Shown piece by piece: positions 738-34,461 of a stretch of DNA of 36,964 nucleotides (its first letter is position 1; each line of letters starts with the position of its first letter). This DNA is from a virus. Under the pieces are notes generated by a model. That model was not told the origin of the DNA. It ran no database searches and saw nothing but the letters and a program-made list of their open reading frames with translations. A program made the position numbers and the translations under genes. Location: IMG/VR virus record IMGVR_UViG_3300017748_000030, positions 1 to 36,964 of that record. One strand, written 5' to 3'.

Positions 738-1088
738 ATGAATGAATTTACTCAAATAATTAACGAGGTAGGATTTCCAATAGCATCCGCTTTGGGTTTG
801 GGTTTTTTTATATGGAAACTTATTAATAGAATTATTGATGGCATGGAAACCAAGCTTGAAACCCTAGATGACAAAGTACAAACAAGTTTGGATACAATGG
901 AAGAAAGAGTATCTACCAAATTAGATAGCCAGTATGGAATTATTGTAGCTTTGATTGATAGGGTCAGAGCCTTAGACAATCAAAGCATTAGACAGGATGT
1001 TTTATTAAAAACTTTATTAGGTGTACCCAATCTAATAGACATAGATAAATTAGCGAAAGCAGACAGAGATGATCAAAGAAAAGACTGA
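738..1088 (+). CDS. Small membrane protein with coiled coil, YvrJ/holin-like
   Basis: The 116-residue product has one hydrophobic segment near the N-terminus (residues 10-30, VGFPIASALGLGFFIWKLI). A long amphipathic helix rich in heptad Leu/Met/Val follows (about 32-85), and the C-terminus is polar. The NEVGFPIA start and the membrane-then-coiled-coil shape resemble the YvrJ/BhlA type of small phage and bacteriocin-associated membrane proteins, some of which are called holin-like. This assignment is tentative. It is the first gene of the operon that carries the curli-like genes and the lysis genes, and it overlaps the CsgF gene by 20 bases. No clear Shine-Dalgarno precedes the ATG. It could be a holin, an antiholin or an inner-membrane partner of the CsgG/F pore. 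Confidence 0.65.
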   Translation: MNEFTQIINEVGFPIASALGLGFFIWKLINRIIDGMETKLETLDDKVQTSLDTMEERVSTKLDSQYGIIVALIDRVRALDNQSIRQDVLLKTLLGVPNLIDIDKLAKADRDDQRKD

Positions 1089-1542
1089 TTGGATGTTTAT
1101 ATTTGGTATTATTGGATTGATAATAACCATTATTATTTCTATGTTTGCTCATGGTGATGAAATGGTGCATAAATTCAAAAGCCCAAGCTTTTCGGGTATA
1201 GGCACTTCTGCTCATTATTTAACAATAGAGAATCAAGAAACAAGCAGAAAAGAAGCTATTAAAGCTGAAATAAAAGCTTATCAGGAAGACCTAGAAAGAG
1301 AAGCCAACAATACAACACTAGCTAGATTTATAAGAAATTTAGAAAGCAGAATTTATGCACAGCTTAGTAGACAGCTTGTGGATAATTTATTTGGTGAAAC
1401 TGCTAATACTTCAGGCACACTTGAACTAGAAGGTAATACAATAGAGTATTCAACCGATGGTGAATACATAACTTTAAACATAACAGATGCAGATGGAAAC
1501 ACGACAGAAATTACTTTGCCTATTGGGGATTTTTCTTTCTAG
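1069..1542 (+). CDS. csgF: CsgF homologue, curli secretion accessory protein
   Basis: In bacteria CsgF is a small secreted protein that plugs into the extracellular side of the CsgG pore, forms a second constriction, and couples secretion to fibre nucleation. The 157-residue product has an N-terminal hydrophobic export signal (residues 9-28). It then has FKSPSFSGIGTSAHYLTIEN (36-55), the counterpart of the mature N-terminus of E. coli CsgF (FRNPNFGG...LLNSAQAQN) that binds inside CsgG. The C-terminal half also fits: a helix ending LARFIRNLESRIYAQLSRQL (85-104), then a beta region (EYITLNITDADGNTTEITLP) like the [20 protein letters not shown] end of CsgF. It overlaps both neighbours, the downstream csgG by 56 bases. 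A phage gene of this family is unusual. Confidence 0.85.
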   Translation: MIKEKTDWMFIFGIIGLIITIIISMFAHGDEMVHKFKSPSFSGIGTSAHYLTIENQETSRKEAIKAEIKAYQEDLEREANNTTLARFIRNLESRIYAQLSRQLVDNLFGETANTSGTLELEGNTIEYSTDGEYITLNITDADGNTTEITLPIGDFSF

Positions 1543-2284
1543 CTGTAGCACCCTAGACAATTACGCCATACCCTTTACTAGCGTCAAACAATCAGAGGTT
1601 GGACAACTAATCAACCAAGACTTAGCTAATACAGGCGTGCCTTTTGTAAAACTTATTGTTGCCGTCTATCCCACAAGCTTTATTGATCATACAGGACAAC
1701 GAAGAAGCAACAGTTCCTTTGCAACCTTTAGCACAGCAGTAACTCAAGCACCTTATGCATATTTAATTAGAGCTTTAAAACACGCAGGTAACGGTAATTT
1801 TTTTGATGTGGTAGAAAGAGTTGGGTTAGATAATTTAACCAAAGAAAGACAGCTTATTAGATCAACAAGAAAAGACTTTGATGAAAAAAAAGATTTGTTA
1901 CCTTTAGCCTTTGCAGGATTGCTTATGGAAGGTGGTGTGATAGGATATGAAAGTAATCTTAAGTCAGGTGGTCTTGGTGCAAGATATTTAGGTATTGGAG
2001 CCACAAAAGAGTACCGACAAGATACAGTAACGGTTTCACTAAGAACTGTTTCTGTTAGTACGGGCAAAGTTTTAACAGAAGTATTGGTTACCAAAACCAT
2101 ACTTAGCGTTTCGCTAAATCAAGATGCCTTTCGATTTATTTCTGATAATACAGAGTTAATTGAAATAGAAAACGGCATCACCGAAAACGAATCTATAAAT
2201 ATTGCCTTACAAAACGCAATAGAAACCGCAGTTTTGGAAACAATTAAGCAAGGAGTTGTATTAAATTATTGGAACATAAAATGA
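1487..2284 (+). CDS. csgG: CsgG homologue, outer-membrane curli secretion channel lipoprotein
   Basis: CsgG is the nonameric outer-membrane lipoprotein pore that secretes curli subunits. The 265-residue product (E. coli CsgG has 277) begins with a lipoprotein signal and lipobox LSSC at residues 17-20. Core similarity to E. coli CsgG is strong by eye: FSTAV at 81-85, then VERVGLDNLTKERQLIR (109-125), IGYESNLKSGGLGARYLGIG (152-171), then LRTVSVSTGKVL (185-196) and KTILS (203-207). The loop that forms the pore constriction differs. By my alignment E. coli Phe56 is kept (F81), but Tyr51 and Asn55 become S76 and T80, with one extra residue in the loop. The start lies 56 bases inside csgF, so the pair is probably translationally coupled. 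CsgE, CsgC and CsgD homologues are not seen in the window. Confidence 0.95.
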   Translation: MQMETRQKLLCLLGIFLSSCSTLDNYAIPFTSVKQSEVGQLINQDLANTGVPFVKLIVAVYPTSFIDHTGQRRSNSSFATFSTAVTQAPYAYLIRALKHAGNGNFFDVVERVGLDNLTKERQLIRSTRKDFDEKKDLLPLAFAGLLMEGGVIGYESNLKSGGLGARYLGIGATKEYRQDTVTVSLRTVSVSTGKVLTEVLVTKTILSVSLNQDAFRFISDNTELIEIENGITENESINIALQNAIETAVLETIKQGVVLNYWNIK

Positions 2285-2979
2285 AAAAATTATTAGCATT
2301 GTTTTTAATAGGTTCTGTGTATGCAGACAACGAGGTGTATGTGGATCAGGTCGGAGCTACCTTCAACCTTGATATAGAACAACTTGGCTCATCTAATATT
2401 ATAGGGGGTGCTATAGCTTCAGCAGGTTCCATGACTGCACTTGATCTTGATGGCGGAACAATGACTTTGGACATCAATCAAATAGGTGATAGTAACAAAT
2501 TTCTTGGAGATATAACCGCAAGCACTTTTACAGGTTTTTTTGAATTTGATGGCGATAGCAATACCTTTAATATACAAGTCGACCCCACAAATACTTATGG
2601 TGCAAATAGTGGTAACTTTAATGTAGATGTAACAGGAGGTAGCAATACTTTTACCTTAGATGTTGCAACCAATGATCTTGCTAGCACTTTAGATTTAGAC
2701 TGGATAGTGCAAGGAGATAGCAATACTTTTGATTTTGATATAGATTATGATTTGGCAACCAACTATGTTGATGTGGATGGAGATAGCAATACAGTTAATT
2801 TTGATGCTGATGGTAAGAGTGGAGGATATTTTAAACTTGAGCATGACGGCAACTCAAGAACATTTAACATTGATCAACAAAGTGAATTAGCAAGTGACTG
2901 GCTCCGCATTATTTCTAACGGTAACAGTGGTACTGTTTGCGTCATTCAAAACGATGGCGGAACAAGCACCTCATGTTGA
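2281..2979 (+). CDS. Secreted protein with curlin-like repeats, candidate CsgG substrate
   Basis: The ATG at 2281 overlaps the csgG stop by four bases (ATGA) and gives 232 residues; an upstream TTG at 2269 is less likely. A clean signal peptide (MKKLLALFLIGSVYA) is followed by a repetitive, Gly/Asn/Asp/Thr-rich beta protein. Near the N-terminus are curlin-type steps Q-x-G-x-x-x/N (Q23-V-G, Q34-L-G-S-S-N, Q67-I-G-D-S-N). Further on, variants recur about every 20-30 residues: DGDSNTFN, TGGSNTF, QGDSNTF, DGDSNTVNF, DGNSRTFN, NGNSGT. Curlin subunits (CsgA/CsgB) use Q-x-G-x-x-N strand-turn-strand repeats to build amyloid fibres. Here most repeats are Asp-rich and lack the second Gln, so this is a divergent relative or look-alike. 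Two Cys lie near the C-terminus. Confidence 0.75.
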   Translation: MKKLLALFLIGSVYADNEVYVDQVGATFNLDIEQLGSSNIIGGAIASAGSMTALDLDGGTMTLDINQIGDSNKFLGDITASTFTGFFEFDGDSNTFNIQVDPTNTYGANSGNFNVDVTGGSNTFTLDVATNDLASTLDLDWIVQGDSNTFDFDIDYDLATNYVDVDGDSNTVNFDADGKSGGYFKLEHDGNSRTFNIDQQSELASDWLRIISNGNSGTVCVIQNDGGTSTSC

Positions 2980-4003
2980 TGTAGGAGAAATCTCAGAACT
3001 AAACGGTGTTGCCCGTATTGTGCGAGATGAAGCAGAAACAGCAAAGTTAAAAGCTGACATAAGATCATACGACACCCTTGAGACCTCTAATGGTCGCATG
3101 GCTGTTACTTTTCTTGACGATACACTTATACGCCTTACCGAACACTCGCAAGTATTAATTGATGAGTTTGTTTTTGACCCTGACCCAAACAAATCAAAAA
3201 TGGCACTTAATTTTGCTAAAGGGACTGCTAGGTTTGTTACTGGCAAATTAAACAAGGTTGCTAAAAAAAACATAACAATTAGAACTAACAGTGCAACTGT
3301 AGGCATTAGAGGCACAGATTTTACTATCACAACCAATGAGATTGGTGAGTCATTAATAATTCTGTTGCCCAATAAAGATGGTACAGCAAGCGGTGAAATA
3401 GAGGTCATGACCGCTATGGGTACTGTAATCTTAAATAAACCCTATCAATCTACCGTTACCACGGTTTTTGAATCTCCTCCAAGCAAGCCAGTCATTTTAG
3501 ATTTAACTCTTGACCTTATTGATAACATGTTAATTGTTACCAATCCACAAGAAAATAAAACCGCAAATGAAGAGGTTACAGATCAAAGTAGCAATGTACT
3601 GGATGTAGATTTTTTAGAGTTTGATGAGTTAGAACAAGACTACTTAGCAGAAGATGATTTGGAGTTTACAGAGCTAGATATTAACTTTTTGGATGTTAAT
3701 TTTTTTGAAGATATGTTAAAAATAGTTAACGAATTAGATAAACTAAAAGAAGATGATCTAAAACAAGATCAGACAGTAACAAGAATTATTGGCACTAAAA
3801 TTGGTCAAGATACAGAAACACAAATAATTACCTTGGTTACTGGAGATTTAATAAGTTTAAGAAGAAAGGTTGAACAGTCAGTACAAGTAGATTTAAACTC
3901 TAGTCAAGGATATACTGTTATTTTTATACAAAACGGTGTTTCTAATACTATAAAAATAAATGGTGGAGGAGACTCAGTTATAACCATTAAACAAAGTTCA
4001 TAG
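2894..4003 (+). CDS. Secreted FecR-domain protein with acidic linker and curlin-like C-terminus
   Basis: The frame opens with GTG at 2894, inside the preceding gene (86-base overlap). This start is chosen because residues 4-18 form a hydrophobic export signal ending near TMA-EQ; a start at ATG 2954 would lose it. Residues about 60-155 match the FecR domain (GRMAVTFLDDTLIRL, then FAKGTARFVTGKL, then NSATVGIRGTDF). Then comes a very acidic stretch (about 235-292) with repeated F-L/E-x-D-x-L units. The last about 25 residues contain IQNGVSNTIKI and GGGDSVITIKQ, which resemble one curlin repeat and a half. FecR domains occur in sigma-factor regulators and in cell-surface or peptidoglycan-associated proteins. 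With an export signal and no cytoplasmic domain, a surface or periplasmic role is likelier here, perhaps as anchor or nucleator of the upstream repeat protein. Confidence 0.75.
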   Translation: MTGSALFLTVTVVLFASFKTMAEQAPHVDVGEISELNGVARIVRDEAETAKLKADIRSYDTLETSNGRMAVTFLDDTLIRLTEHSQVLIDEFVFDPDPNKSKMALNFAKGTARFVTGKLNKVAKKNITIRTNSATVGIRGTDFTITTNEIGESLIILLPNKDGTASGEIEVMTAMGTVILNKPYQSTVTTVFESPPSKPVILDLTLDLIDNMLIVTNPQENKTANEEVTDQSSNVLDVDFLEFDELEQDYLAEDDLEFTELDINFLDVNFFEDMLKIVNELDKLKEDDLKQDQTVTRIIGTKIGQDTETQIITLVTGDLISLRRKVEQSVQVDLNSSQGYTVIFIQNGVSNTIKINGGGDSVITIKQSS

Positions 4004-4010
4004 GATTAAA

Positions 4011-4496
4011 ATGAAATTTAATTTAATAAAAAATGTAGTAGGAGCCATAGCACCGACACTAGGCTCTGCTTTGGGTGGACCATTAGGTGGACAGGCAGCT
4101 TCTGTTGTGGCACAAGTTCTTGGTTGTTCTCCTGAGCCAAAAGCCATCAATCAAGCCATTCAATCAGCCACGCCTGAACAAATGCTTGAACTAAAAAAAG
4201 CAGAACAAAACTTTGAAGTGCAGATGAAAGAATTAGATGTAGATGTATTCAAGCTAGAGGTTCAAGACAAAGCAGATGCTAGAGGAAAATTTAGCAAAGA
4301 TTGGACAGCTAGAATCATGGGTACTGCTGTGGTCGGTGGATTTCTAGGCTATATATTTTTGGTTACTTTACAGCCACCTGAACAAAATTCTGAAGCTTTA
4401 ATCAATTTGGTGTTAGGATATCTAGGTGGGTTGGCATCAGCAGTTATATCGTTTTACTTTGGGGCTTCAAACACGCCTGAAAAAAAAGATGACTAG
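4011..4496 (+). CDS. Holin-like membrane protein, GTA_holin_3TM type
   Basis: The product has 161 residues. A Gly/Ala-rich hydrophobic N-terminus (APTLGSALGGPLGGQAASVV) is followed by a charged helical region (about 50-95, ELKKAEQNFEVQMKELDVD) and two C-terminal membrane segments (about 105-122 and 130-152). This order matches the 3TM holin family of gene transfer agents and marine phages, which permeabilises the inner membrane and lets endolysin reach peptidoglycan. It follows the FecR-domain gene by 7 bases and overlaps the next gene by 8 bases. It is directly upstream of an XhlA-like gene and the endolysin, which supports the lysis role. Confidence 0.8.
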   Translation: MKFNLIKNVVGAIAPTLGSALGGPLGGQAASVVAQVLGCSPEPKAINQAIQSATPEQMLELKKAEQNFEVQMKELDVDVFKLEVQDKADARGKFSKDWTARIMGTAVVGGFLGYIFLVTLQPPEQNSEALINLVLGYLGGLASAVISFYFGASNTPEKKDD

Positions 4497-4707
4497 CAAG
4501 CCAACAGTACAATCTGTTTCATCGGATTTAAAATCACACGAGGCACAATGTGCTGAAAGATGGAAAACAATATTTCGAGAAACAGAAGAAATAAAAGCAG
4601 AAGTTGCAGATTTAAACAAAACTTTAAAAATGGCGGTGTTTGGATGTTTCGGATTTTTAGGAACCTTGCTAATAGCATTAATATCAATACTCTTTCCCCT
4701 AAACTAA
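4489..4707 (+). CDS. XhlA-like small membrane protein of the lysis cassette
   Basis: The ATG at 4489 gives 72 residues; a frame opening at 4426 is longer but runs inside the previous gene. An N-terminal charged helix (residues 12-47, ending EVADLNKTLKMAV) precedes one C-terminal membrane helix (about 50-69, FGCFGFLGTLLIALISILF). This is the typical layout of haemolysin XhlA-like proteins that cooperate with holins and endolysins. It overlaps the upstream holin-like gene by 8 bases and the downstream endolysin by one base, so all three are likely co-translated. It lacks the signal peptide or lipobox expected of a spanin. Confidence 0.65.
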   Translation: MTSKPTVQSVSSDLKSHEAQCAERWKTIFRETEEIKAEVADLNKTLKMAVFGCFGFLGTLLIALISILFPLN

Positions 4708-5150
4708 TGCAAATATCAAAAGAAGGCATTTGCCTGATTAAAAAGTTTGAAGGCTGTGAGTTAGAGGCTTATCAAGATGCTGTAGGTGTTTGGACAATTG
4801 GCTATGGTCACACCAAGAATGTGCAAGAAGGACAAAAAATATCAGAAGAAGAGGCTGAATCCATGCTTACGCATGAGCTTATGGAATACTGCAAGTATGT
4901 AGAAGATGCTGTAGAAGTGCCATTGCACCAAAATCAATTCGATGCTTTGGTTTCATGGACTTATAATTTAGGTCCATCCAATCTTAACAAATCAACCATG
5001 TTAAAAGTTTTGAATAGAGGTCACTACGAGGAGGTGCCTGCACAAATATGTAGGTGGAATAAAGCAGGGGGTAAGGTGCTAGAGGGATTGACCCGAAGGC
5101 GAAACGCTGAATCTCTACTTTTTGAAGGCAAGGAGTGGGGTAAAATCTAG
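4707..5150 (+). CDS. Endolysin, GH24 (T4-type) lysozyme
   Basis: The ATG at 4707 shares its A with the upstream stop and gives 147 residues, a normal size for phage GH24 muramidases, which cleave the MurNAc-GlcNAc bond of peptidoglycan. The catalytic triad spacing of T4 lysozyme (E11-D20-T26) is reproduced as E15-D24-T30 in KKFEGCELEAYQD and WTIGYGHT. The conserved downstream motifs FDALVSWTYNLG and a late GLTRRRNAE are present. There is no N-terminal hydrophobic signal-anchor, so it probably depends on a holin for release. A frame extending upstream to 4560 is rejected because it runs through the XhlA-like gene. Confidence 0.95.
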   Translation: MQISKEGICLIKKFEGCELEAYQDAVGVWTIGYGHTKNVQEGQKISEEEAESMLTHELMEYCKYVEDAVEVPLHQNQFDALVSWTYNLGPSNLNKSTMLKVLNRGHYEEVPAQICRWNKAGGKVLEGLTRRRNAESLLFEGKEWGKI

Positions 5151-5158
5151 GAGACAGT

Positions 5159-5623
5159 TTGCCACATGCCACTACACGCATAGCGTTAGCAGGTGAATAT
5201 TTGGCAGCATCTTACTTGCTGAGATTTTGCGACTCTGTAATTCTTGCACCCCAAGCTCATAGAAGCGATTTAATTTTAGATCATCAAAATAAGTTATACA
5301 GAGTACAAGTTAAAACTACCAACTCTACATATTTGCGAAGGGGTAAAGATTATTATCGTTGGGAGTTACGCAGTGGTAGAAGAACGGCAAAGAAAGAAAG
5401 ACAAGATTCAGGCGAAAGATATGGCAACGGTCAGATAGATTTATTTTGTTTGGTAGCCCTGCCTTTAGATAAGGTAATTTTTATGCCATTCCATAAAGAA
5501 AAAAATTTAACAGAGTTTGCAAAAACAGAAGAAAGGCTTTTAGAAATAGACACCAAAGAATCTTTGCAAGCATGTTTAGATCAAGCAAACAAAAGTCCAA
5601 AATTAACACCTTTAGATTTGTAA
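5159..5623 (+). CDS. PD-(D/E)XK endonuclease-like protein
   Basis: The start is a TTG at 5159 with GGAG five bases upstream; the nearby ATG at 5166 is out of frame. The 154-residue product matches the small PD-(D/E)XK nuclease type: GEYLAASYLL (with E13), RSDLILD (D37) and then YRVQVKTTN with Q50 and K52 as the (D/E)-x-K-like motif. A C-terminal beta segment follows (GQIDLFCLVAL, KVIFMPF). Such proteins are related to archaeal Holliday-junction resolvases and intron-type endonucleases, and cut or resolve DNA. It sits between the endolysin and terminase, where resolvase-like nucleases can process concatemers before packaging; that role is inferred. Confidence 0.75.
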   Translation: MPHATTRIALAGEYLAASYLLRFCDSVILAPQAHRSDLILDHQNKLYRVQVKTTNSTYLRRGKDYYRWELRSGRRTAKKERQDSGERYGNGQIDLFCLVALPLDKVIFMPFHKEKNLTEFAKTEERLLEIDTKESLQACLDQANKSPKLTPLDL

Positions 5624-6086: not shown

Positions 6087-7571
6087 ATGCTTGATTTAGA
6101 CAAAATAAAATCTTTTGAAATTCTATCTAAGGATGAGCAGATAGAAGCCTTGGCTTTGATTGATAAATGGAAAAACATCAAAGCAAGAACCAAATGCAGA
6201 GATGATTTTTTAGAGTTTGTACAAATGATGTGGCAAGGCTTTATTATGGGTAGACACCACAAAATACTTGCAGATAAGTTTAATCGCATAGCACAGGGCA
6301 AACTTAAAAGACTGATTGTGTGTTTACCACCAAGACATTCTAAATCTGAATTTGCATCAACATTTTTTCCTGCATGGATGATGGGACTCAATCCATCACT
6401 TAAAATTATTCAAGCAACTCACACCGCAGAACTAGCTGTAAGGTTTGGTCGTAGAGTTAGAAACATAATTGACTCAGAAGATTATCAAACAGTTTTTCCA
6501 AATATTAGCTTATCAGGAGATAACAAGTCAGCAGGTCGATGGACAACCAATGATGGCGGTGAAGCTTTCTACTCAGGGGTGGGTGGTGCTATTACAGGTC
6601 GTGGTGCAGATTTGTTAATTATTGATGATCCACATTCTGAGCAAGATGCCATGTCACCAACTGCAATGGATGGAGCTTGGGAGTGGTACACATCAGGTCC
6701 ACGCCAAAGGCTACAGCCGGGTGGTACTATCATTTTGGTAATGACACGATGGTCAACCAAAGATTTAGCAGGTCGATTGCTTAAAAGACAGTCAGAAGCA
6801 CACGCTGATCAGTGGGAGCTTGTAGAATTTCCTGCAATCATGCCTGAATCTGATGAACCTTTGTGGGCGGAGTTTTGGAAGAAAGAAGAACTTTTAGGTG
6901 TAAAAGCATCTTTACCAGTATCCAAGTGGAATGCTCAATGGATGCAAAATCCAACAGCAGAAAGTGGATCAATCATCAAAAGAGAGTGGTGGCAAACTTG
7001 GGAGAGTGAAGAAATTCCTGCGTGTGAATGTATTATACAAAGCTATGACACCGCATTTAGTGCAAAAGAAACGGCTGACTACTCGGCTATAACGACATGG
7101 GGCATATTTTATCCTGAAGAAGGCGATGAAGCTTCTGTTATATTATTGGATGCATCAAGGCATAGAGTAGACTTTCCTGAATTAAAAAATATAGCTTTAG
7201 AAGAATATAAATACTGGGAACCTGATATTGTTTTGATTGAGGCAAAAGCCAGTGGCACGCCTTTAACACAAGAACTTAGAAAGATAGGCATACCCGTACA
7301 ATCTTATTCGCCAAGCAGAGGGCAAGACAAGATAGCAAGAATGAACTCTGTCTCACCCATGTTTGAAAGTGGCATGGTGTGGGCAACAGAAGATGCGTTT
7401 GCCGAAGAAGTTATTGAAGAAATGGCTTCTTTTCCTTACGGAGAAAACGATGACTTTGCTGACTCCGCTACCATGGCGTTAATGAGAATTAGACAAGGAG
7501 GCTTAATTGAGCTAGGCACAGACTATGAAGATGAGGTATCATTTGATAGAAGAAAGCTAAGTTATTACTAA
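6087..7571 (+). CDS. terL: Terminase large subunit (TerL)
   Basis: TerL is the ATP-driven DNA packaging motor and cuts concatemers at the portal. The 494-residue product has a deviant Walker A (CLPPRHSKSE, about 79-88), Walker B LLIIDD (176-181) and a coupling motif region near VMTRWS (218-223). The C-terminal RNase H-like nuclease has acidic residues at D321 (QSYDTAF), E385 (VLIEAKASG) and D459 (DDFADSATMAL). This is the Terminase_6 type with a C-terminal nuclease. No small terminase is recognisable next to it. The following 58-codon gene overlaps its stop by one base. Confidence 0.95.
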   Translation: MLDLDKIKSFEILSKDEQIEALALIDKWKNIKARTKCRDDFLEFVQMMWQGFIMGRHHKILADKFNRIAQGKLKRLIVCLPPRHSKSEFASTFFPAWMMGLNPSLKIIQATHTAELAVRFGRRVRNIIDSEDYQTVFPNISLSGDNKSAGRWTTNDGGEAFYSGVGGAITGRGADLLIIDDPHSEQDAMSPTAMDGAWEWYTSGPRQRLQPGGTIILVMTRWSTKDLAGRLLKRQSEAHADQWELVEFPAIMPESDEPLWAEFWKKEELLGVKASLPVSKWNAQWMQNPTAESGSIIKREWWQTWESEEIPACECIIQSYDTAFSAKETADYSAITTWGIFYPEEGDEASVILLDASRHRVDFPELKNIALEEYKYWEPDIVLIEAKASGTPLTQELRKIGIPVQSYSPSRGQDKIARMNSVSPMFESGMVWATEDAFAEEVIEEMASFPYGENDDFADSATMALMRIRQGGLIELGTDYEDEVSFDRRKLSYY

Positions 7572-16919: not shown

Positions 16920-17102
16920 ATGCACAAGAAAACTAAAGGATATGCTAGCGGTGGTATGGTCAAATCCAAAGGCATGAAAAAAGGTGGCATGATGAAATCA
17001 AAGGGCATGAAAAAAGGCGGTGCGATGAAATCTAAAGGCTACAAAAAAGGCGGAAAAATAAGCACAAAAGGTTACAAGAAGGGCGGAAAAGTAAGTAAGT
17101 AG
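16920..17102 (+). CDS. Lys/Gly repeat protein (KSKGMKKGG units)
   Basis: The ATG at 16920 follows AGGAG. The 60-residue product is almost entirely repeats of about 10-11 residues: KSKGMKKGG twice, KSKGYKKGG, and STKGYKKGG. It has no acidic residue and is certainly disordered. At DNA level this gives an approximate 33-base tandem repeat. It would bind nucleic acid or other polyanions. It ends the basic block and shares one base with the next gene. Confidence 0.8.
   Translation: MHKKTKGYASGGMVKSKGMKKGGMMKSKGMKKGGAMKSKGYKKGGKISTKGYKKGGKVSK
16965..17090 (+). repeat. Approximate 33-base tandem repeats inside a coding gene
   Basis: Units around AAATC-AAAGGC-ATGAAAAAAGGCGG recur about four times at roughly 30-36 base spacing. 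They encode the KSKGMKKGG units. They are coding repeats, with no CRISPR-like spacers. Confidence 0.7.
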
Positions 17103-33642: not shown

Positions 33643-34461
33643 TTACAAATCTGTAAGTTTGATTGGCACAATTTGATTGTGTAAATTGTATGGGGTGTAG
33701 ATACCTGTTTGCTCACACTTCAACAATAAGTCCAGTGCTTGTTCATTCAGAGATCGACCATACTCTACAGCTTCAGGTTCCAACTCATAAACCACATATG
33801 GATATGGATGAGTCTTTTCTATTGCAAGAAACTGAAACCTATCAACCTCAGTCAGACCTACATTTTTAGCGGCATCAAGATAGAAAGCTGCCTGTTGATG
33901 ATAGCCAAATGTTTTGACTGAATGTTTAAAGCCTCTTGGTGAAGCGTCACGACAGGTTTTAAGATCAACAATCACATTGTCTTGCAACATATCGAAACGA
34001 GCTTTACACAAATGCCCAAAGTAATCGAAGACCACTGATAGCTCAGTCTTGTCCTCGCCCCTTGGTTTAAATGCATCAAGAACCTCACAACGAGCTACAC
34101 AAGTGTCATACAAGTCTTGTGAGACAACGCTACGATTACCAACAGAAGAAAGAAAGTCTGCATACTCTTCTTTGCCTGCCTTGGTTCTTTTGTCGACCTT
34201 AGGTGCTATGACGAACTCATCGTCAAACACATGAGGTTCTAAAAATAAACAATGTTGCAATCTACCCTCAACAAAGAATGAAGCCTCGCTGTCAGGCTTC
34301 TCTTCGTATTTATATTTATAAGGGTCTTTCATGATGGCTGAGAGATCGTGTGATCTAAAAGCACCAAGATCATTGTATTCAGGGAAAGGCATGTCGTCAT
34401 ACACTCCCTCTTCGTAGACCACGACATCGAAGCGTGGTTCAAAATCTATTACATCACCCAT
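33643..34461 (-). CDS. RecE-like 5'-3' exonuclease (PD-(D/E)XK)
   Basis: RecE/lambda-exo type nucleases resect duplex ends to give 3' single strands for annealing. The 272-residue product has the family order: RLQHCLFLEP with H70, E140 (DKTELSVVFD), CKARFDML with D157, VIVDLKTCRDA with D166 and K168, and GYHQQAAFYLDA with Q189/Q190. A late FLAIEKTHPYPYVVYEL segment is also typical. Size and motif order fit the RecE C-terminal nuclease. It lies next to an SSB-like gene. No annealing protein such as RecT or Red-beta is recognised in the window, so the SSB-like protein or a host protein may act as partner. Confidence 0.85.
   Translation of the reverse strand: MGDVIDFEPRFDVVVYEEGVYDDMPFPEYNDLGAFRSHDLSAIMKDPYKYKYEEKPDSEASFFVEGRLQHCLFLEPHVFDDEFVIAPKVDKRTKAGKEEYADFLSSVGNRSVVSQDLYDTCVARCEVLDAFKPRGEDKTELSVVFDYFGHLCKARFDMLQDNVIVDLKTCRDASPRGFKHSVKTFGYHQQAAFYLDAAKNVGLTEVDRFQFLAIEKTHPYPYVVYELEPEAVEYGRSLNEQALDLLLKCEQTGIYTPYNLHNQIVPIKLTDL

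Follow-up and report, generated by a model that had tools for sequence, protein, structure and literature searches.

Curli-type (type VIII) secretion genes have already been described in phages. HTVC023P-type phages carry genes for a histidine kinase, CsgF, CsgG, CsgA/B and FecR, to which an adenylate cyclase and a second curlin are often added; the same gene set is reported for myophages (PMC9599517, 2022). The presence of csgF and csgG in pelagimyophages was claimed as a first report in PMC7029224. For the phage Melnitz a role in lysis was proposed, no clumping was seen, and csgA and csgB were said to be lacking (PMC9004378). The DNA analysed here, referred to as the window, is linear virus DNA of 36,964 bases (the whole of IMG/VR record IMGVR_UViG_3300017748_000030). 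It carries a cassette of this kind, consisting of csgF, csgG, a curlin-like gene here called rep, and fecR. The first-pass annotation, made from the window alone, could not verify whether such a full set had been reported. The set is real, but it is already known, because it is published in PMC9599517 and annotated in Melnitz. Contrary to the statement in PMC9004378, the Melnitz record (L133, 6842-9636) annotates two curlin associated repeat proteins; both are matched by the rep profile (1.3e-18 and 1e-10). We consider it rather probable that the window holds the published pelagiphage type VIII secretion cassette in a cyclase-less form, with a FecR core matched to the state of the neighbouring CHASE2-cyclase gene.

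The window resembles the cassette of PMC9599517 in its gene order (csgF-csgG-csgA/B-fecR), in the small gene that precedes csgF, and in the type of phage as judged by the terminase. It differs in that its first gene shows no kinase family, its FecR is the cyclase-less allele, and its fecR is followed after 7 nucleotides (nt) by the next gene, with neither a second curlin nor a cyclase there. These two genes are frequent, not constant, after fecR according to PMC9599517. They do not follow fecR in the window, which is a fragment record, and no cyclase match was obtained among the window open reading frames (ORFs). The myophages Melnitz (OM43) and HTVC008M have csgF, csgG, rep and fecR in the same order as the window, but carry an additional second curlin-like gene and a cyclase, and the window CsgG is 40-44% identical to theirs.

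Loci were scored as having the cyclase (AC+) or lacking it (AC-), absence meaning that no profile match starts within 2.2 kb after fecR where more than 0.9 kb of sequence is available. A gene of the CHASE2-cyclase family follows fecR in 145 of the 164 loci with room for it, and all 10 relatives scanned contain both CHASE2 and Guanylate_cyc. FecR is laid out as a core (about residues 56-150), an acidic linker (221-290) and a C-terminal tail (291-369). The cyclase is present in L003, whose CsgG is 100% identical to that of the window over 243 columns. Across FecR residues 56-150 the window and L003 are 58-60% identical, whereas the window and cyclase-less L075 are 76-82% identical although their CsgG proteins share only 69%. 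Typing of FecR by regular expressions at 205 loci of known cyclase state gave 24 AC- loci of type N and 160 AC+ loci of type P, and no locus combined type and state the other way; 19 AC+ and 2 AC- loci were untyped, and 14 further loci are of unknown cyclase state.

Residue-level comparisons used 142 non-redundant rows, from which loci of unknown cyclase state, FecR sequences shorter than 350 amino acids (aa) or with X, CsgG sequences shorter than 245 aa or with X, and duplicates had been excluded. Residue 109 of FecR is Lys or Arg in 18/18 AC- rows and 1/124 AC+ rows, and residue 79 is Ile in 18/18 and 1/124, respectively. These are not population frequencies, because the rows were drawn from three scans in which loci were ranked by how similar they are to the window. 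On the CsgG tree, cyclase state changes 11 times, with 8 of the changes forced by starred branches. Residues 79 and 109 switch with it in 8/8 independent pairs (median p 0.0078, range to 0.0156), and the test for FecR type gives 7/7 pairs (p 0.0156). Columns with a mutual information to entropy ratio (MI/H) above 0.5 for cyclase state number 29 of 368 in fecR and 2 of 232 in rep; there are none among the 266 columns of csgG, the 146 of csgF or the 94 of tm738, the gene upstream of csgF. Trees of FecR segments require 5 changes of cyclase state for residues 26-55, 2 for the core, 4 for residues 151-220 and 8 for the tail. All trees were built from proteins by a quick method, and these counts are rough because short segments (95 residues in the core, 79 in the tail) resolve poorly.

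A separate loss of the cyclase is represented by L219 and L221. Compared with their AC+ sister L222, they have 13 and 12 core differences, of which 5 and 3 are towards the AC- residue and none is away from it. Over residues 151-369, none of the 18-19 differences goes either way. Residue 109 is Arg in place of Ser (S109R) in both. Judged from sequence, this loss is a case of convergent point changes in the FecR core. Ribonucleotide reductase genes were recognized by eye downstream in L221. Because the form of FecR goes with the presence of the cyclase, these data suggest that the FecR core and the neighbouring cyclase work together. No FecR-cyclase coupling in phages was found in the titles and abstracts of the open-licence PMC literature searched, where only PMC9599517 joins FecR, adenylate cyclase and curli. 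As far as the available text of PMC9599517, PMC7029224 and PMC9004378 extends, the co-variation of FecR core and cyclase is new relative to those accounts.

A different explanation is that fecR and the cyclase gene are swapped as one recombination block, in which case the association would reflect linkage and not partnership, and FecR would have a separate role. This is possible, but we think it doubtful. Several observations nevertheless count against a working FecR-cyclase pair, and some fit block exchange directly. The two genes are adjacent. Pairs with identical CsgG (window/L003, L075/L074 and L023/L009) differ across most of FecR and not in the core alone. L137 combines an apparently intact cyclase with a FecR core of the cyclase-less type (22/36 diagnostic columns), and the cyclase carriers HTVC008M and Melnitz have mixed core residues. 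Compared with L240, L219/L221 show 1 core change away from the AC- residue, and compared with the more distant L220/L224 they show 3 away and 9-11 towards. Beyond the core, FecR is poorly modelled by AlphaFold2 (AF2). For the curli side of the cassette, no Pfam family, Curlin_rpt included, reaches its cut-off in the window rep, and Curlin_rpt is found in only 4/19 rep relatives (E up to 1, best 0.0017). Block exchange also fits two old alleles with strict pairing, and the gradual climb of the state-change count along FecR (5, 2, 4, 8). It fits less well with the tail, which lies between the core and the cyclase but needs 8 changes versus 2 for the core. Among the pairs compared, near-identical L002 aside, the window tail is nearer to that of AC+ L005 (88/93%) than to those of AC- L023 (82/83%) or L014 (82/86%), and in L219/L221 the same sites are the ones that changed, against a background sharing 90% identity with AC+ L222. 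A FecR core matched to its cyclase remains the reading we prefer.

The FecR domain named in the first pass is present in the window protein (PF04773, E 1.8e-11, 44.7 bits, cut-off 24), and the core matches the fold of the PupR signalling domain (Z 15.8, root-mean-square deviation (rmsd) 2.4 over 138 residues). Domain and fold would accord with the suggestion of PMC9599517 that FecR regulates the module in the iron-citrate manner, but such a role seems to us very improbable. No other Pfam domain, the sigma-binding domain included, was found in FecR above cut-off, and the N-terminus is hydrophobic and export-like. Bacterial relatives point the same way. The FecR profile at 1e-10 has matches in 120/385 genomes of the class of G001 (a Maricaulis sp. 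record), and 18 of the best 20 bacterial places listed are in open frames longer than 400 aa that match the core, not the tail. A protein that matches part of the phage cyclase profile is encoded as well in 4 of the 11 bacterial FecR regions read (in two of them the match is to the catalytic half only). The bacterial neighbourhoods are like those of the sister phages in having a FecR-domain gene near a CHASE2 gene, and unlike them in that no csgF, csgG or rep profile match occurs in the 11 regions. Among the matches listed, 24/150 bacterial CHASE2 places have a FecR place less than 5 kb away, a raw count not set against chance. The Burkholderia BiofilmReg operon encodes a LysM-FecR protein and a CHASE2 kinase (PMC5192318, 2016), and what CHASE2 domains recognise is stated there as not known. 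According to PMC5498481, the cAMP regulator Clr of Sinorhizobium has a FecR-domain protein among its reported targets, and the cyclase CyaD1 includes a CHASE2 part. As far as sequence comparisons can tell, FecR is more likely an extracytoplasmic partner of the cyclase than an iron regulator.

CsgG of the window matches PF03783 (E 3e-45, 154.5 bits, cut-off 20.8) and solved CsgG chains in PDB (1.9e-43). It has the lipobox LSSC, a pattern kept in 53/55 non-redundant relatives, and the conserved central block YESNLKSGGLGARY. CsgF matches PF10614 (E 2.9e-18, 66.7 bits, cut-off 25.8); its score against the NCBIfam equivalog PRK10050.1 is 15.4 bits, far below the cut-off of 171, and a PDB sequence search returned no CsgF. 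The CsgF segment DEMVHKFKSPSFSG is aligned with bacterial GELVYQPVNPSFGG, and N-terminal SPSFSG is aligned to NP[ST]FGG in 3/4 bacterial rows. Entry of the N-terminal CsgF segment into CsgG, as described for the complex, is recounted in PMC9004378. The first-pass identification of both pore genes is borne out, and the Pfam search it proposed places CsgF, CsgG and FecR above their cut-offs and leaves rep without a match. CsgE and CsgB are not among the Pfam families matched by the 10 window proteins scanned; the rest of the window was not searched. A CsgG match of 41.6% also occurs in OR851715.1, a 1,499-base unannotated Salmonella phage record that is possibly host DNA.

The QxGxxN-type repeats noted in rep at first sight are mostly of a looser form. 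Strict QxGxxN occurs twice, at positions 34 and 67 (shuffles give P 0.002), while G[DSNGT][STGND]N occurs in 6 copies spaced 22-33 residues apart, a number reached by 0/20,000 shuffles. Rep has a net charge of -30 over 217 residues. A C-terminal Cys pair, 12 apart, is present in 19/19 relatives, and 8/19 have DUF3060 matches. The AF2 model is all-beta (pLDDT 80.9). Its two matches below 1e-3 in BFVD (2.6e-4 and 6e-4) are both named Curlin associated, and a Foldseek search of PDB gave no match at 1e-3. VIA-align against PDB returned SufD-like and other beta-helices (5awg_A, Z 16.9, rmsd 4.1, 203 residues); these matches probably reflect a shared solenoid shape only, and no curli fibril structure is named among the rows shown. 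A PDB profile search with rep gave weak E values for five antibody heavy chains and one cell-surface protein.

Bacterial curli-type regions L097, L098 and L100 (class of G001) are like the window in that QxGxxN-repeat ORFs lie close to csgF and csgG. They are unlike it in that, across the five bacterial csgF regions read, no ORF kept matches the phage FecR profile; one of the five, L096, says little because the choice of ORFs also hid its csgF and csgG. The rep profile matches one of the five, at an ORF beside csgG in L097 (1.3e-4 in a search of L097 ORFs alone), and the other four are without a match. Pairwise hhalign of rep with 12 bacterial ORFs that contain QxGxxN gave E values of 3.4e-5 to 0.13 and probabilities of 0.4 to 72%. 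The N-termini of rep and the ORF at L098 5530-6480 are aligned at 1.6e-4, with ADN and then YxDQxG in both. A hidden Markov model of the 22-residue curlin repeat, built from bacterial ORFs, was also tried and gave no separation between shuffles and either rep or FecR. By these comparisons rep is probably a distant curlin, and it is predicted to form a beta-solenoid. The first-pass proposal of a pore that exports its own repeat protein survives as the best reading, a curli-type pore with its substrate. Since rep is at most a distant curlin, what is exported may or may not be an amyloid. Egress, superinfection exclusion and host aggregation, the uses suggested in the first pass, are candidate functions only; for aggregation, the Melnitz study saw no clumping (PMC9004378).

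A curlin repeat in the FecR tail was considered and left as speculation. QxGxxN lies within the last 45 residues of 48/68 non-redundant FecR sequences (2.3 expected in shuffles), the sequences being related. For the window tail alone its P is 0.047; the longer pattern of QxGxxN, 6-12 residues and [ST]xxxxxQ gives P 0.004, having been picked after the sequence was viewed. No Pfam curlin match was found in 20 tails scanned and no curlin in PDB. By hhalign, the tail and rep gave E 0.03 with a probability of 1.7%, no firm match came from the comparison with bacterial curlins (best 0.007), and 1/68 control windows scored higher. In the rep/fecR overlap (window 2894-2979), the Cys-pair C-terminus of rep and the export-like N-terminus of FecR are encoded in different frames.

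The arrangement of the cassette is fixed. The sample consisted of 228 sequences: the window, 80 CsgG loci, 5 genome-contig loci, two myophage records and 140 loci from FecR and rep scans. Only loci with flanks long enough to test were counted, and several loci share a contig. Rep is adjacent to fecR in 201/201 fecR-based and 211/211 rep-based comparisons, rep follows csgG in 206/206, and csgG is upstream of fecR in 174/174. The 219 fecR loci represent 179 distinct fecR DNA sequences, and in 125/201 loci rep and fecR overlap by exactly 86 nt. The ratio of nonsynonymous to synonymous substitution rates (dN/dS) was estimated for csgF, csgG, rep and fecR in 8 pairs, and 9/32 estimates were not computable because synonymous sites were saturated. 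The values are 0.03-0.17, setting aside the near-identical window/L002 pair, in which csgF gives 0 and rep 0.27. All four genes are under purifying selection. The four-gene order, which the first pass proposed to look for in marine viral contigs, recurs in viral loci, with rep and fecR present wherever csgG was retrieved with room; the absence of these two genes from related phages, which would have refuted the first-pass proposal, is not what is seen.

This constancy bears on the proposal, put forward for Melnitz in PMC9004378, that the CsgGF pore is a lysis-timing device, either a gated channel or pinholin-like, to which rep and FecR would be accessories. We regard this as improbable. The window module does sit between a holin-like gene and a lysozyme gene, and in L024 (6846-7602) a spanin-like pair, recognized by eye, stands straight after fecR, where the sisters have the cyclase. 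A bare pore would need neither rep nor fecR, however, and these genes are never missing where there is room and are under purifying selection. In HTVC008M and Melnitz the annotation shows hypothetical genes but no lysis gene up to a distance of about 6 kb from the module. Secretion by a published cassette, with FecR matched to the cyclase state, is the reading carried forward here.

Two profile scans of IMG/VR gave at least 594 and at least 592 confirmed places. A search of genome contigs for bacterial FecR gave 5 loci (L082-L086), all of them phage cassette genes inside metagenome-assembled genomes; therefore no close bacterial donor was found. These genomes are labelled Maricaulis, Neomarinimicrobiota and Pelagibacter, and the loci are probably phage contigs binned with bacteria.

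The window is from a marine phage. By its terminase large subunit, this phage appears nearest to HTVC023P-type podophages (identity 62.9% to 023Pt_psg01, 58.5% to Phage DSL-LC04, 57.6% to HTVC027P, a Pelagibacter phage, and 55.1% to HTVC023P), and its host is probably a SAR11 bacterium. Features of the locus are listed below. As first described, the four genes at 1069-4003 are adjacent and overlapping (csgF/csgG by 56 nt, csgG/rep by 4-16 nt, rep/fecR by 86 nt), and all four products have a strongly hydrophobic N-terminal stretch, in keeping with the export signals noted. Relatives of tm738 were found in 183/228 sequences, many of the 228 stopping short of the site. Among 18 relatives, phrog_18771 was matched in 18/18 and the holin phrog_4898 in 8/18, and no kinase family was found in Pfam. 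Judged by position only, tm738 is probably the gene called HK in PMC9599517. Elsewhere in the window, a PD-(D/E)XK endonuclease family protein is encoded at 5159-5623, between the lysozyme and the terminase. A tandem repeat with a 33-base unit (3.1 copies, 79% matches) lies at 16950-17050, and an exonuclease VIII-like gene at 33643-34461 (-) is near the primase-helicase at the right end.

Features of the cassette and its surroundings in the window (positions are those of the 36,964-base record)
Feature	Position	Strand	Basis and remarks
tm738	738..1088	+	116 aa; holin-like; single hydrophobic segment near the N-terminus and a helical tail (by eye); precedes csgF
csgF	1069..1542	+	Pfam CsgF PF10614
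csgG, outer-membrane lipoprotein pore (predicted)	1487..2284	+	Pfam CsgG PF03783; PDB CsgG match; lipobox
rep, curlin-like	2281 (ATG) or 2269 (TTG)..2979	+	Acidic; signal-like N-terminus; C-terminal Cys pair
fecR, exported-type, cyclase-less allele	2894 (GTG)..4003	+	Pfam FecR PF04773; PupR-like fold
7-nt gap, site of CHASE2-cyclase gene in sisters L003 and L004	4004..4010	.	No cyclase in window here
Small protein, phrog_1544 (function unknown)	4011..4496	+	Downstream context
Phage lysozyme	4560..5150	+	Pfam 8.3e-50; lysis gene beside module
Terminase large subunit	6087..7571	+	Identity to HTVC023P-type phages

These features suggest how the cassette could act. By homology, CsgG, with the N-terminus of CsgF as both plug and guide, would form a pore in the host outer membrane during infection. 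Rep would be the substrate of this pore and reach the cell surface. FecR, whose gene accompanies the csg genes throughout the relatives tested, would be exported too. In most relatives the co-variation is consistent with a FecR core that faces the CHASE2 sensor of the neighbouring membrane adenylate/guanylate cyclase, and the FecR-cyclase pair may report curlin export or the state of the envelope to the cytoplasm. In the lineage of the window there is no cyclase, and the FecR core is altered accordingly. A more tentative extension is that secretion monitors itself. The FecR tail would engage the curlin or the pore, the core would signal to the CHASE2 cyclase, and the cyclic nucleotide level of the host would shift, while cyclase-less lineages would re-tune the same core sites. 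The tail, whose final motif resembles one and a half curlin repeats, could then cap or nucleate the fibre in the manner of CsgB.

The cassettes are widespread in viral contigs. The FecR-cyclase link offers a signalling pair open to testing, with named residues, in place of the iron-regulator reading. It would also bear on the FecR/CHASE2 gene neighbours of bacteria.

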